Shown here piece by piece: positions 8,231 to 61,078 of a DNA stretch of 64,000 nucleotides. Under the pieces are notes generated by a model. The model ran no database searches. It worked only from the letters and a program-made list of their open reading frames with translations, and was not told the origin of the DNA. The translations under genes and the position numbers were made by a program. Numbering within the stretch: position 1 is the stretch's first letter; each line of letters begins with the position of its first letter. Origin of the DNA: Pseudomonas sp. RSB 5.4 (GTDB lineage: Bacteria; Pseudomonadota; Gammaproteobacteria; Pseudomonadales; Pseudomonadaceae); the NCBI RefSeq assembly GCF_037126175.1, contig NZ_CP146986.1, positions 1,013,501-1,077,500 on the forward strand, read 5' to 3'.

Positions 8231-8768
8231 TGTGGGAGCTGGCTTGCCAGCGATGGCGGTCTACCAGCCGACCAACCTCCCACCTGAATGCACGCATTCC
8301 AACTGTGGGAGCGAGCCTGCTCGCGAAAGCGGCCTCACAGTCGACCAGTCCCTGACTGAATGCACTCGATCAAATGGTGGGAGCTGGCTTGCCAGCGATG
8401 GCGGCCTCCCAGCCGACCAACCTCCCACCTGAATGCGCGCATTCCAACTGTGGGAGCGAGCCTGCTCGCGAAAGCGGCCTCACAGCTGACCAATCCCCAA
8501 CTGAATACACTCGGTCAAATGGTGGGAGCTGGCTTGCCAGCGATGACGGCTCACAAGCCGACCAACCTCCCACCTGAATGCACGCATTCCAACTGTGGGA
8601 GCGAGCTTGCTCGCGAAAGCGGCCTCACAGTCGACCAATCCTTGACTGAATGCACTCGGTCAGATGGTGGGAGCTGGCTTGCCAGCGATGACGGCCTACC
8701 AGCCGACCAATTCCCACCTGAATGCACTCAATCCAACTGTGGGAGCGAGCTTGCTCGCGAAAGCGGTC
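8231..8768. repeat. REP array: eight REPs of two alternating types, period about 145 bp
   Basis: Two kinds of REP alternate in one orientation. One has the stem core GAGC(T/C)TG-CTCGC (about 8310, 8449, 8592, 8738). The other has the core GCTGGCTTGCCAGC (about 8231, 8376, 8520, 8665). Each pair plus spacer is 143-146 bp long and is repeated nearly four times, with spacers holding short words such as GAATGCACTC. Reading frames crossing this block are by-products of the repeat and not genes. Confidence 0.9.
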
Positions 8769-8837
8769 TGCCAGACGACATCAAAACTACAGGAGCAATC
8801 CCGGTTCTCCACACACACCATAAACGCATCTCTGCAG

Positions 8838-8958
8838 CCACGTTTAAAGTACACGAACCGTTACGCCATACAGGCTACAACGCCTTGCGCCGTTACCTAC
8901 GCGTACGCCAGAATCCGCCGGCTTACACGACTATGGGTCGGGCTATATCGTTTCCCTG
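8838..8958 (+). repeat. Upstream half of dispersed element, copy 1
   Basis: This stretch is similar to the reverse strand of 56609-56720 and 60860-60980. The core from GGCTACAACGCC to CGCCGGCTT is nearly identical in all three. Two frames stay open through the core in every copy (peptides like GYNALRRYLRVRQNPPA and ATTPCAVTYAYARIRRL), so either a short coding tail or a constrained RNA is possible. It directly precedes the structured leader. Confidence 0.75.
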
Positions 8959-9145
8959 TCACTGAAAATCAGTGATCGGGTTTGGTAGCCCGTTTCTAAG
9001 TGTGATGGCGACACCGTGTGCAGTCCCTTTTCAGGGGCTCGATTTTATGGTGGCCATGCGTGGGGCTCCTTCGGGAGCGCCGGGTTTTCCTGCTTAGACC
9101 GGTCTACCAACCCGCGTATGGCCACCACCCTCGTTTGGTAGCGAG
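8959..9145 (+). ncRNA. Structured leader element, copy 1, upstream of DUF6124 gene
   Basis: Four foldable parts occur in order. (1) TCACTGA-AAA-TCAGTGA, 8959-8975. (2) CGGG-TTTGGTAG-CCCG, 8977-8992. (3) A continuous 16-bp stem pairs 9049-9064 with 9111-9126 and encloses the hairpin GCTCC-TTCG-GGAGC (9065-9078) and the segment CTACCAA (9104-9110). (4) CTCG-TTTGGTAG-CGAG, 9130-9145. The two TTTGGTAG loops are complementary to CTACCAA. A second copy at 56421-56608 on the minus strand keeps this plan with different bases in the stems. The element ends 41 bases before a DUF6124 start codon. It could be a leader RNA or a set of protein-binding sites; no known family was recognised. Confidence 0.65.
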
Positions 9146-9185
9146 AGTGATGGCTCCTTACTTTTGCTAAGCAGGAGCTTCATCC

Positions 9186-9557
9186 ATGTTCAAAGCCACA
9201 CCCAACCCCCCAGACACCTCGATCCCATACGACCCAGCCCTCGACCCGCAGAAGATAAAAGCGGCAACTGACCGTGCCATCAACTTCTACCTCAACCCCG
9301 GCGCCCTGAAGATCTCGATCCCTTCAACCTCGTCATGCAAGGCGAACAGAATCTTCCTCATCGACCCCACCGTGGACGAAGAAACCTTGCTCGTCGAAGC
9401 CTGCGAGTCATTAGCCGCCGCCAGTGACATGGCCCGTGATATCGGCGACACCGTCGACCACTCGCAACGCCGGGCCATGCTGATGCTGCATCAGGTGATC
9501 ATGCTCAGTGAACTGATGGTCAACCGGGTACTGGACGGCCGCCGCGTGCCGAGCTAA
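9186..9557 (+). CDS. DUF6124 family protein
   Basis: 123 aa, start ATG with AGGAG 8 bases upstream. It has the family pattern: an N-terminal tail MFKATPNPPDTS, a helix with A-x-x-R-A-I-x-x-Y, a middle stretch F-L-I-D-P-x-x-D-E-E-T-L-L, and a C-terminal helical part with ACESLAAASDMA and QVIMLSELMVNRVLD. No signal peptide or membrane segment is evident, so it is probably cytoplasmic. Function is unknown. It is the most divergent of the three paralogues here (others at 9698 and 56022). It lies just after the structured leader. Confidence 0.85.
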   Translation: MFKATPNPPDTSIPYDPALDPQKIKAATDRAINFYLNPGALKISIPSTSSCKANRIFLIDPTVDEETLLVEACESLAAASDMARDIGDTVDHSQRRAMLMLHQVIMLSELMVNRVLDGRRVPS

Positions 9558-9568
9558 CTGCCCGGTCC

Positions 9569-9657
9569 CCTGTAGGAGCTGCCGAAGGCTGCGATCTTTT
9601 GATTTTGTTTTTCAAGATCAAGATCAAAAGATCGCAGCCTGCGGCAGCTCCTACAGG
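9569..9657. repeat. Long inverted repeat between two DUF6124 genes (35-bp arms, one mismatch)
   Basis: The arm 9569-9603 (starting CCTGTAGGAGCTGCCG) is the reverse complement of 9623-9657 apart from one base, around a 19-bp loop. It is a common Pseudomonas intergenic palindrome family. As RNA it would form a very stable hairpin and may end the upstream transcript. A decayed relative lies at 39318-39386. Confidence 0.85.
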
Positions 9658-9697
9658 TCATCATTCATTCAAAGTACGTCGATCGGAGTTCCATCTG

Positions 9698-10057
9698 ATG
9701 CCCGAACCCAAGCCCAATCCGCCGGCCACAGACTCGGTATCACCCTACGAATCCCTCAACTCCAGAAAACTCCACGAAGCCGCCGAACGCGCCCTCGACC
9801 ATTACCTCGCACCCGCGCAAATCATGGCAACGCCATACACCCCCAGCAGCATGTTCCTCGTCAATCCACAAACCGACACCGAATCCCTGCTGGCCAACGC
9901 TTGCGAATCTCTGGCGTCGGCCACGGTCATGCTCGGCGATTTCGCCGGGACGCTGGAGGGGCCGAGTCGTAATACGGTGTTGGGCATTGCGCAGGTAGTG
10001 ATGCTGGGGGAGTTGGCGGTGAATCAGGCGCTGGATAATGTTGTGCCCAAGGAATAG
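9698..10057 (+). CDS. DUF6124 family protein, second paralogue
   Basis: 119 aa from ATG 9698. The open frame extends upstream into the inverted repeat, but MPEPKPNPPATD aligns with the N-termini of the other two paralogues, so I chose this start. Shared blocks are SPYESLNSRKLHEAAERALD, SSMFLVNPQTDTESLL, ACESLASATVMLGDF and QVVMLGELAVNQALD. It is much closer to the copy at 56022 than to its neighbour at 9186. That suggests exchange or transposition between the loci rather than local duplication. Unlike the other two it has no structured leader directly in front. Function unknown. Confidence 0.85.
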   Translation: MPEPKPNPPATDSVSPYESLNSRKLHEAAERALDHYLAPAQIMATPYTPSSMFLVNPQTDTESLLANACESLASATVMLGDFAGTLEGPSRNTVLGIAQVVMLGELAVNQALDNVVPKE

Positions 10058-48202: not shown

Positions 48203-48361
48203 AGTGTTTTCGCCGGTCTCAACCGGTTCTGCCGCCGCTTCAGCCGCCATCTTCGCGCGGTCAGCCTTGCTGATGTACTTGGGCTTTTTCGGCGCCAGTT
48301 TGGCGCTGGCTTTTTTGGCCTTTTCCTTGAACAACTGCTGCAGTTTCTTTTGGCGGTTCAT
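48197..48361 (-). CDS. DUF2986 family small basic protein
   Basis: 54 aa from ATG 48361 (MNRQKKLQQLFKEKAKKASA). Strongly basic N-terminal half with PKKPKYISKADRAKMA, then an acidic tail EPVETGENTL. This is the DUF2986 pattern common in gamma-proteobacteria. An upstream in-frame ATG adds 10 residues, but the family starts at MNRQKK. Function unknown. Confidence 0.88.
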   Translation of the reverse strand: MNRQKKLQQLFKEKAKKASAKLAPKKPKYISKADRAKMAAEAAAEPVETGENTL

Positions 48362-48475
48362 GTTTCTACTCGGTGAAGGGGAGCCGGGCATATGCCCATC
48401 AAGCGCGCATTAAAACCGGCTCGGAGCGATTTGGCGAGTCGCTTGCAGCGATGCAGGATCAAACGGCTGCCCGGA

Positions 48476-56021: not shown

Positions 56022-56384
56022 CTACTTCACCAACTCAACCCTATCTAGCGCCCGATTCACCGCTAGCTCCCCAAGCATCACCACCTGCGCAATCCCCAAC
56101 AGCGTTTTGCGCATCGGTCCTTCCACCAGTGCAGCCACATCCCCGAGCATCACCGTCGCCGAGGCGAGTGATTCGCAGGCGTTGGCGAGAAGGGATTCGG
56201 TGTCGGTGTCGGGATTGACGAGAAACATGCTGCTGGTTTGGTAAGGGGTTGCCATGATCGCGGCGGAAGGGCTGAGGTAGTGGTCGAGGGCGCGTTCGGC
56301 GGCTTCGTGGAGTTTCTTTGAATCGAGAGATTCGTAGGGGGAGGCCGGATCGATGTCTGGCGGGTTTGGCGTTACTTTGACCAT
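56022..56384 (-). CDS. DUF6124 family protein, third paralogue
   Basis: 120 aa. MVKVTPNPPDIDP, SPYESLDSKKLHEAAERALD, SSMFLVNPDTDTESLL, ACESLASATVMLGDV and QVVMLGELAVNRALDRV match the paralogue at 9698 over almost all positions. ATG 56384 is preceded by AGGAAAAAGAAGAAC. It follows the second copy of the structured leader, on the minus strand. Same unknown function. Confidence 0.88.
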   Translation of the reverse strand: MVKVTPNPPDIDPASPYESLDSKKLHEAAERALDHYLSPSAAIMATPYQTSSMFLVNPDTDTESLLANACESLASATVMLGDVAALVEGPMRKTLLGIAQVVMLGELAVNRALDRVELVK

Positions 56385-56420
56385 GTTCTTCTTTTTCCTG
56401 TTTGTTGGCGGCCACTCCGA

Positions 56421-56608
56421 GCTACTAAACAGGGGGTGGCAGCTGTGCGCAGGTTAGTAGACCGGGGAAAAGAAGAAAGCCGGCGCGCCCGAGGGCGCCC
56501 TACACACAGCCGCCATCAAGTGCAGGTAGGAAAATACCTGACTGACGGACGCGCATGCGCTTTCATTTACCACGGGCTACTAAACCCGATCACTGCGAAT
56601 CAGTGATC
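56421..56608 (-). ncRNA. Structured leader element, copy 2, upstream of DUF6124 gene
   Basis: Read on the minus strand from 56608 down. GATCACTG-ATTCG-CAGTGATC (56608-56588). CGGG-TTTAGTAG-CCCG (56588-56573). A 19-position outer stem pairs 56519-56501 with 56455-56437 with one mismatch, and encloses the hairpin GCGCC-CTCG-GGCGC (56500-56487) and CTACTAA (56462-56456). A second TTTAGTAG lies at 56431-56424. Compared with copy 1 the stem sequences differ but remain paired, and the G of both TTTGGTAG loops and the C of CTACCAA have become A and T together. The stem around the last loop of copy 1 is not kept here. Confidence 0.65.
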
Positions 56609-56835
56609 GACCCAAGTTACCGATGGCTCTCCAGGCGCACAAGCCGGCGGATTCTGGCGTAGTCGTAGGCAACGGCGCAAGGCGTTGTAGCCTTCAGGAC
56701 GTAACGCGGGGTGTCTATTAAACGCCAGGTAAAACCGTTAAACGCAGGATGGTGTGAAGTCGGCCCGCGCATGACGCTGACGTTGTGATTGAGTGCGTAC
56801 AGGCACGTGAAGAAGGGGAGGCCAGAACGCATTGC
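56609..56835 (-). repeat. Upstream half of dispersed element, copy 2
   Basis: Shares about 220 bp with 60840-61078 (same strand) and its core with 8838-8958 (opposite strand). One minus-strand frame of 98 codons (start near 56913) runs through it, ending ATTPCAVAYDYARIRRLVRL. Whether it is translated is unknown. Confidence 0.75.
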
Positions 56836-60421: not shown

Positions 60422-60724
60422 TTAGAGATCTGTCCCTATGATCTCGGCAAGCGCACTGATAGTGGCTTCATTGCGTTTGTAGTAAGTCCATTGACCGATG
60501 CGCTTGACCTCGACCAAGCCCACTCGTTGCAGCGTTGCAAGATAACCAGACACCGTTGACTGCGACAGCCCGATGCCTTCCTGAATACTACTTACGCAGA
60601 CCCCCACCGTGAGAACGTCTCCTTCATCCTGCGGAGGGAAGTTCTTAACGGGGTCCTTCAGGCCTTTCAAGATTTCAAGGCGAGTAGGGTTGGAGAGGGC
60701 TTTGAATATTTCGAGTAATTCCAT
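60422..60724 (-). CDS. ArsR-family winged-helix repressor
   Basis: 100 aa. [19 protein letters not shown] opens the domain, the recognition helix is [20 protein letters not shown] and the wing is [13 protein letters not shown]. Only one Cys is present (VGVCVSS), so classic arsenic binding is unlikely; a redox or organic signal is possible. It is the first gene of the group that continues with the MDR reductase and ABM genes. ATATCGA-type sites lie before it and before the reductase gene. Confidence 0.92.
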
Positions 60725-60819: not shown

Positions 60820-61078
60820 CCACGGCTACTACATTTGATCACTGCGAATCAGTGACCGCCCCAAGTTACCGACAGCCCTCCAGGCGCACAAGCCGACGGA
60901 CTCTGGCGTAGTCGTAGGCAACGGCGTAAGGCGTTGTAGCCTTCAGAATGCAACGCAGGGTGTCTGTTAAACACCAGGCAAAAAATCTTTAAACGCAGGA
61001 TGGCTTGAAGTGGGCCCGCGCTTGACGTTGACGTTATGATTGAGTGCGCGTAGGCACGTGAAGAGGGCAGAACGCATG
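60820..61078 (-). repeat. Dispersed element, copy 3, incomplete
   Basis: Matches 56570-56835 over about 240 bp: CACTGCGAAT-CAGTGA hairpin, the core GGCTACAACGCC (minus strand) and the far part with GGCCCGCGC and GACGTTGACGTTATGATTG. It keeps one degenerate TAGTAG segment (about 60823-60832) but lacks the outer stem, the inner hairpin and the CTACYAA part, and no DUF6124 gene follows. It abuts the broken flavoprotein gene. Confidence 0.75.

Follow-up and report, generated by a model that had tools for sequence, protein, structure and literature searches.

Two similar structured elements stand 5' of DUF6124 genes in a 64,000-nucleotide stretch of DNA from Pseudomonas sp. RSB 5.4 (hereafter the window), and they raise the question of what they are and how they might act on the genes behind them. 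Both were found where the preliminary description of this DNA had placed them, at 8959-9145 (+) and 56421-56608 (-). Its view that the element is undescribed was refuted by an Rfam search of the window, in which the two copies matched the C4 antisense RNA (RF01695) over its full length with 82.4 bits (copy 1) and 77.7 bits (copy 2), far above the cut-off of 45; the search returned no further C4 in the 64 kb. C4 is a classic antisense RNA of phages, known from P1/P7 immunity, and the switch was first known from phage P1. The first hairpins of copy 1 matched c4-a1b1 (RF03163) with 51.5 bits (cut-off 46.7), and the same model scored 33.3 bits on copy 2, below that cut-off, although the a1 of copy 2 is exact. 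As both RF01695 and RF03163 appear in the accessible part of Weinberg et al. 2010 (PMC2864571), the structure cannot be called undescribed. The presence of DUF6124 instead of icd-ant would speak for a new RNA family of unrelated function, but this view is already contradicted by the full-length C4 matches and by the occurrence of every P1 part in P1 order, and it must be considered extremely improbable. A match to IsrK (RF01394; Salmonella prophage Gifsy-1), the leader hairpin of which resembles a1b1, was rejected, as it reached 30.4 bits at 8958-9031, below the cut-off of 50.

What stood of the earlier account was a structured, conserved RNA element 5' of DUF6124, in which pairing is kept despite sequence change. 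The repeated TTTRGTAG and the CTACYAA described there are indeed present; their role had been missed, as they are the targets a1 and a2 and the antisense loop a', which pair with each other. A second antisense/target pair, formed by b', which lies in the C4 loop, and b2, which covers the Shine-Dalgarno sequence of DUF6124, was lacking altogether, and the extent of 8959-9145 was too narrow, since the unit runs from 8904, with an upstream block and promoter-like boxes, to 9177, at the Shine-Dalgarno sequence. The parts of the two copies and the genes behind them are as follows.

8904-8924, + strand: upstream block of copy 1, 21 bp, found by pattern search
8923-8951, + strand: promoter-like boxes of copy 1, TTACAC (8923-8928) and TATCGT (8946-8951), spaced by 17 nt, read by eye in alignment with 15 other loci
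8945-8996, + strand: c4-a1b1 of copy 1 (RF03163)
8982-8988, + strand: a1 loop of copy 1, TTGGTAG, with a possible b1, CTAAG, at 8996-9000, both read from the letters
9043-9132, + strand: C4 antisense RNA of copy 1 (RF01695)
9088-9097, + strand: antisense loop b' of copy 1, TCCTGCTTAG, exact complement of 9167-9176
9104-9110, + strand: antisense loop a' of copy 1, CTACCAA, exact complement of 8982-8988 and 9135-9141
9130-9145, + strand: target a2 of copy 1, TTGGTAG (9135-9141), inside a CTCG/CGAG hairpin, from sequence and fold
9167-9177, + strand: target b2 of copy 1, CTAAGCAGGA (9167-9176), exact complement of b', overlapping the Shine-Dalgarno sequence AGGAG (9173-9177)
9186-9557, + strand: DUF6124 gene under copy 1 (PF19619, 64.9 bits, cut-off 27)
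9698-10057, + strand: second, tandem DUF6124 gene without a C4 of its own (PF19619, 80.8 bits)
56641-56661, - strand: upstream block of copy 2, 21 bp, exact match
56569-56620, - strand: a1b1 region of copy 2, with a1 TTAGTAG at 56577-56583
56432-56520, - strand: C4 antisense RNA of copy 2
56466-56477, - strand: antisense loop b' of copy 2, TTCTTCTTTTCC, read from the letters
56454-56460, - strand: antisense loop a' of copy 2, CTACTAA, read from the letters
56422-56428, - strand: target a2 of copy 2, TTAGTAG, exact complement of a'
56386-56398, - strand: target b2 of copy 2, GGAAAAAGAAGAA, at the Shine-Dalgarno sequence, complementing b' with one extra A
56022-56384, - strand: DUF6124 gene under copy 2 (PF19619, 77.2 bits)

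The window has three DUF6124 genes in all: copy 1 is followed by a tandem pair and copy 2 by a single gene. Since the order is b'-a' in the C4 and a2-b2 in the target, both parts of the antisense RNA are able to pair simultaneously. A GTGATG just 3' of a2 (window 9150-9170) opens a 6-codon ORF in copy 1, and in the near-identical loci L006, L010 and L016 the same GTGATG begins an in-frame extension of DUF6124 (134-135 codons).

Copy 1 folds with -84.6 kcal/mol (z -5.19) and copy 2 with -84.1 kcal/mol (z -5.21), and for neither copy was any of 200 dinucleotide-preserving shuffles as good. The long outer stem with compensatory changes, which had been proposed from the two copies, held up in the 17-bp register of Rfam: seven pairs differ between the copies, all seven still pair and four are double changes. 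When 113 C4 loci from three genomes are taken together, 94.1% of the stem cells pair, as against a mean of 87.7% and a maximum of 89.1% in 500 controls with the 3' strands dealt to other loci, in which the relatedness of the loci remains, and double changes were found at 14 of the 17 outer-stem positions.

Phage P1 was run through identical steps as a control. Its C4 was found at 48337-48422 with 68.8 bits (RF01695), and the same script recovered the a and b pairing in a record that annotates a1 at 48255-48261, b1 at 48269-48276, mature C4 at 48343-48419, a2 at 48423-48429, b2 at 48452-48459 and the icd start at 48470. The icd gene thus begins about 47-48 nt after the Rfam C4 end, and a gene start lies 45-57 nt after it in 85 of the 104 loci of the three genomes in which the script found an ORF; given this correspondence, DUF6124 occupies the icd position. 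At the position of the P1 mature 5' end, all 113 C4 carry GG. The fold and sequence model, the order a1, b1, C4, a2, b2 with similar spacing, and an antisense pairing in two parts, with b2 placed at the ribosome site, are therefore as in P1/P7, whereas the elements here are chromosomal, occur in tens of copies, differ in b'/b2 from locus to locus and precede DUF6124, DUF3077 or other small genes in place of icd-ant. The icd and antirepressor genes that follow C4 in a P1-type immI operon (c4-icd-ant) were not found downstream in the window, where DUF6124 genes stand instead; sequence comparison revealed no similarity of DUF6124 to Icd, and DUF6124 is not an antirepressor by sequence.

Large C4 families on chromosomes are not without precedent. 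In Acinetobacter baumannii AB5075, the "Group 1" C4-like small RNAs form a chromosomal family of 21 members with a variable a' loop, and their RNA-seq pattern is consistent with processing at a GG motif (PMC5320573, accessible part). The Pseudomonas set resembles this group in its size, chromosomal location and variable a' loop; in contrast to Group 1, the targets of which are left open in that part of the report, a cognate target lies directly downstream in Pseudomonas. The CI RNA of phage P4, which according to the portion consulted of PMC4825925 is cut from a leader and pairs both up- and downstream (seqA/seqC), is alike in its excision from a leader and its two-sided pairing, as in the C4 scheme.

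If the complementarity of the window copies reflects a regulatory code, antisense and target should match within loci rather than between them. We compared all 28 C4 loci of the window genome (G000), all 55 of G049, three of them below the cut-off, and the best 30 of 38 in G009. An exact a':a2 run of at least 7 was found in 26/28, 47/55 and 21/30 loci, respectively, and in 8.2%, 4.2% and 12.2% of non-cognate combinations; for a':a1 the counts were 27/28, 48/55 and 20/30 (non-cognate 8.7%, 4.6% and 16.9%). In a fixed register the a':a2 counts were lower (20/28, 41/55 and 21/30), because of register shifts. The b':b2 energies lay at z -12.4, -17.0 and -11.1, in each genome beyond all 5000 permutations, and b' also fits the b1 region, with z -8.1 and -9.9 in two genomes and weakly (z -2.8) in G009. 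In G009, 9 of the 30 loci have no exact a2 of 7, and for 7 of these 9 no target was seen by eye. The same genome holds an array of three tandem C4 about 100 bp apart (L115:1501-1799); their a' are almost identical, their b' differ, and no a2-type target follows the array.

The two parts of the code contribute differently to its specificity. Ranked by b' energy, the own b2 came first in 19/28, 22/55 and 14/30 loci; ranked by a' energy alone, the own a2 came first in only 2/28, 3/55 and 0/30, in part because several loci have an a' in common (18 distinct a' cores among the 28 loci of the window genome). Where a' fits another locus, b' pairs there less well, by 6.07, 6.08 and 4.90 kcal/mol on average. 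When an a run of 7 and, in addition, a b run of 6 were required, the own locus qualified in 23/28, 39/55 and 20/30 cases and other loci, as potential cross-talk, in 2/756, 10/2970 and 13/870. The matching within loci was reproduced in a hold-out of 40 other genomes, each with one top-scoring C4 locus: a':a2 and a':a1 matched in 38/40 each (non-cognate 14.4% and 11.3%), and b':b2 reached z -17.7 with the own b2 first in 23/40. Antisense and target thus match far better within loci than between them. The b' duplex, moreover, overlaps positions -13 to -5 by at least 3 nt in 80 of the 88 loci whose gene starts 40-60 nt after C4, and a Shine-Dalgarno-window duplex of -10 kcal/mol or stronger forms in 70 of these 88 loci, compared with 11.8% of 2604 shuffled pairs.

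Taken as a whole, the anatomy very probably makes each copy a chromosomal counterpart of the C4 control module of phage P1, placed before a DUF6124 gene. A leader would be transcribed that carries the a1b1 hairpins, C4, a2, b2 with the Shine-Dalgarno sequence and then the gene. From this leader C4 would be excised as in P1, in which RNase P reportedly generates the mature 5' end, and the free RNA would act in trans, with a' docking on a2 and b' covering b2 and the Shine-Dalgarno sequence, so that translation of the gene would be blocked. Because in most of the 28 modules a' and b' together match no target but that of their own locus, silencing by each C4 should be largely confined to its own gene.

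Two other modes of action have to be weighed against this module. The C4 might stay in its own mRNA and fold onto its own a2 and b2, giving a self-masking 5' UTR that some signal opens, with no free small RNA and no trans action; the complementarity within loci and the closeness of antisense and target, which would share a transcript and in each window copy lie some 130 nt apart or less, would suit such a leader. However, a strictly cis element has no need of the upstream a1b1 copy of the target, the C4 of P1 and P7 is a processed RNA acting on ant mRNA as far as the accessible parts of PMC5320573 and PMC12197685 describe it, and the C4-like RNAs of A. baumannii look processed by RNA-seq in the former source, so that we consider the cis leader unlikely. 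Alternatively, the C4 set may form a trans network or an immunity system that mainly hits other loci or the antirepressor mRNAs of incoming phages and prophages, the local gene being secondary. Several clustered C4 of G009 without a local target, including one triple array, point in this direction, as do three C4-controlled genes of G049 that are Bro-N antirepressor-like and the roles of this kind proposed for the A. baumannii RNAs in the accessible part of PMC5320573. Nevertheless, most C4 fit their own downstream gene, the orphan C4 of G009 have no partner in their genome that is good on both a' and b', and pattern scans for external targets gave so many chance matches, unrelated phyla being among the matches listed, that they were left unused. 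A predominantly outward role is therefore improbable.

Such modules are abundant in the genus. The window genome (6.24 Mb, one contig) has 28 C4 above the cut-off and 28 DUF6124 matches, and 22 of these C4 are followed on the same strand by a DUF6124 domain whose start lies 198-226 nt 3' of C4; the other DUF6124 matches are 4 second tandem genes and 2 located elsewhere. The remaining 6 C4 loci precede DUF3077 (L005, L009) or a protein that belongs to no Pfam family (L002, L026, L027, L028). In a sample of 59 genomes of the genus, own genome included, C4 was found in 54 (53 over the cut-off), with a maximum of 54 copies, and DUF6124 in 47. The 1014 C4 matches of this sample have a median of 17 per genome, with at least 20 in 26 genomes and none in 5, and C4 and DUF6124 counts are correlated across it (Spearman 0.88). 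Among 274 genomes of the class, with 15 candidates scored per genome, C4 was found in 18 (own included), with at most 6 copies outside the own genome. Of 50,697 phage records searched for DUF6124 itself, a single one matched, and a search of 72,556 plasmid records at E 1e-4 gave no match. The one matching phage record, EU982300 (L124:2868-3354), is that of a prophage, at whose end, close to prtR, a C4 is followed by a DUF6124 gene.

The genes under C4 are diverse in family and similar in placement. Some proteins match both DUF6124 and DUF3077, one (L060) over both cut-offs and another (L070) over that of DUF3077 only, and Bro-N antirepressor-like proteins stand at three C4 loci of G049 (L033, L092, L112). 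The N-terminus of L092 is MIKVTPNPPE, as in many DUF6124 proteins, a hint, from sequence, that DUF6124-type and antirepressor genes may have a start in common. Across 153 C4 loci, the ORF starting 42-60 nt after C4 has at least 60 codons in 118 and is shorter in 27, and 8 have no start codon there; 13 of the 27 short ORFs overlap the ATG of a longer gene by ATGA, like icd/ant1 of P1 according to the annotated ends of these two genes. A conserved-looking leader ORF of 52-54 codons with an ATGA overlap to the next gene occupies the icd position in L493, L496, L499, L500, L506, L512 and others. With regard to function, the three window DUF6124 proteins gave no PADLOC match that would indicate a defence role (E up to 0.1) and no PHROG match. 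The predicted DUF6124 fold has a mean pLDDT of 74 and a pTM of 0.46, with well-predicted helices at 62-84 and 90-114; it had no PDB match at E<=0.001, and no function could be read from it.

How so many similar modules came to carry different codes can be approached through paralogues, which were taken from loci with a script-chosen gene start 40-60 nt after C4; the script picked the wrong frame at some loci (e.g., L014, L037, L097, L104). Among paralogues with at least 80% protein identity, the own b':b2 pairing was stronger than the swapped one in 47 of 47 pairs, which fall into 12 clusters of the three genomes and are non-independent. The mean own energy was -11.84 versus -5.59 when swapped, and swapping in 1329 other pairs gave -5.68. 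In one pair chosen as striking, identity between copy 1 of the window (L004) and L010 is 97.7% upstream, 100% in the 5' half of C4 and the a' block, and 94.4% in the gene, and the two differ at 34 of 102 positions in the b1/b'/b2 blocks and at 55 of 1453 in the rest (Fisher p 6e-20). Syntenic loci of another species (G011) were also compared. Of 24 listed pairs, the 11 with 400 or more aligned bases in the flanks were used, a threshold chosen once the list had been seen; of the 13 pairs dropped, most are of doubtful orthology and one (L006/L566) has a conserved b'. Contrary to expectation, only 3 of these 11 pairs have retained b' and 8 have exchanged it; a' is identical in 9, and own pairing beat swapped pairing in all 8 pairs with a replaced b'. 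Thus b' and b2 change together. The idea that a code is altered only following duplication finds no support in the syntenic loci; since b' has changed between these as well, duplication is not the trigger, and b'/b2 appears to turn over fast generally, a' more slowly.

These observations leave two accounts of the turnover. Pseudomonas chromosomes may hold tens of paralogous C4 switches with b'/b2 codes driven apart by selection against cross-talk, a largely orthogonal set in which each switch would silence a single small gene. These genes would make up a DUF6124/DUF3077/Bro-N regulon that descends from phage antirepressor modules, and the set would in part have an upstream control block in common. 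Because selection against cross-talk and neutral replacement of blocks both stand, we offer this reading tentatively, at somewhat short of an even chance. In neutral turnover, b' and b2 would drift or be replaced as blocks while their pairing is maintained, and cross-talk between loci would not be selected against. The replacement of b' in syntenic pairs, for which duplication is unnecessary, agrees with such turnover, and so do the a1-C4 linker, variable well beyond b1 (19 of 56 columns), the weak own pairing of L010 and L016 (mean -6.65 kcal/mol), two loci with the same first gene and with different b' and b2, and the existence of the few pairs capable of cross-talk counted above. The concentration of differences in the b1/b'/b2 blocks of L004 and L010, a single chosen pair with intergenic upstream DNA included in the rest, counts against it, because compensated drift should be slower than change in unpaired surroundings. 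On balance, neutral turnover is about as probable as its negation.

The family itself is already known, as are large chromosomal sets of it. The scale and the code look new, that is, 28 C4 in one genome and a genus-wide, multi-copy set with cognate downstream targets and fast-changing, private antisense and target letters; no report linking C4 to Pseudomonas, DUF6124 or DUF3077 was found in the open-access literature, outside which most subscription journals lie. C4 is accordingly a chromosomal control unit, as read here, in most sampled genomes of a large genus, and if its codes are truly private, they would constitute a natural library of how RNA regulators multiply in one cell without interference. 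As two families of unknown function, DUF6124 and DUF3077, would be tied to phage-type silencing, removal of C4 would be a direct way to switch on such a gene and ask for its role.

Upstream of the modules, conserved blocks recur. The 21-bp block has 17 sites in the window genome at up to 3 mismatches, 16 of them at C4 loci, and a reversed-pattern control gave 0; it precedes 16 of the 28 C4 by 112-142 bp, beside promoter-like boxes read by eye. In G009 a different conserved block (..TTGTAGGCAATTTCCCAAGCATACT..) stands before up to 18 of 30 C4 loci. As these blocks are common to many C4 loci, groups of loci may share a putative transcriptional regulator. The 17th block, with 2 mismatches, lies at 60820-60910 (-) of the window with promoter-like boxes and an a1b1-like hairpin and without a C4 match; it precedes an ArsR-like ORF (60422-60724, named by eye) and looks like a remnant or a solo leader.

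Two further features of the window surround copy 1. A near-perfect long palindrome lies between the tandem DUF6124 genes (9567-9659) and is present in L006, L010 and L016 as well; miRNA models matching there (9564-9663) were all below the Rfam cut-off and were rejected. At about 8400-8780, short hairpin-like units are repeated (GTGGGAGC..GCTCGCGAAAGCGG and GGTGGGAGCTGGCTTGCCAGCGATG), which appear REP-like by eye.
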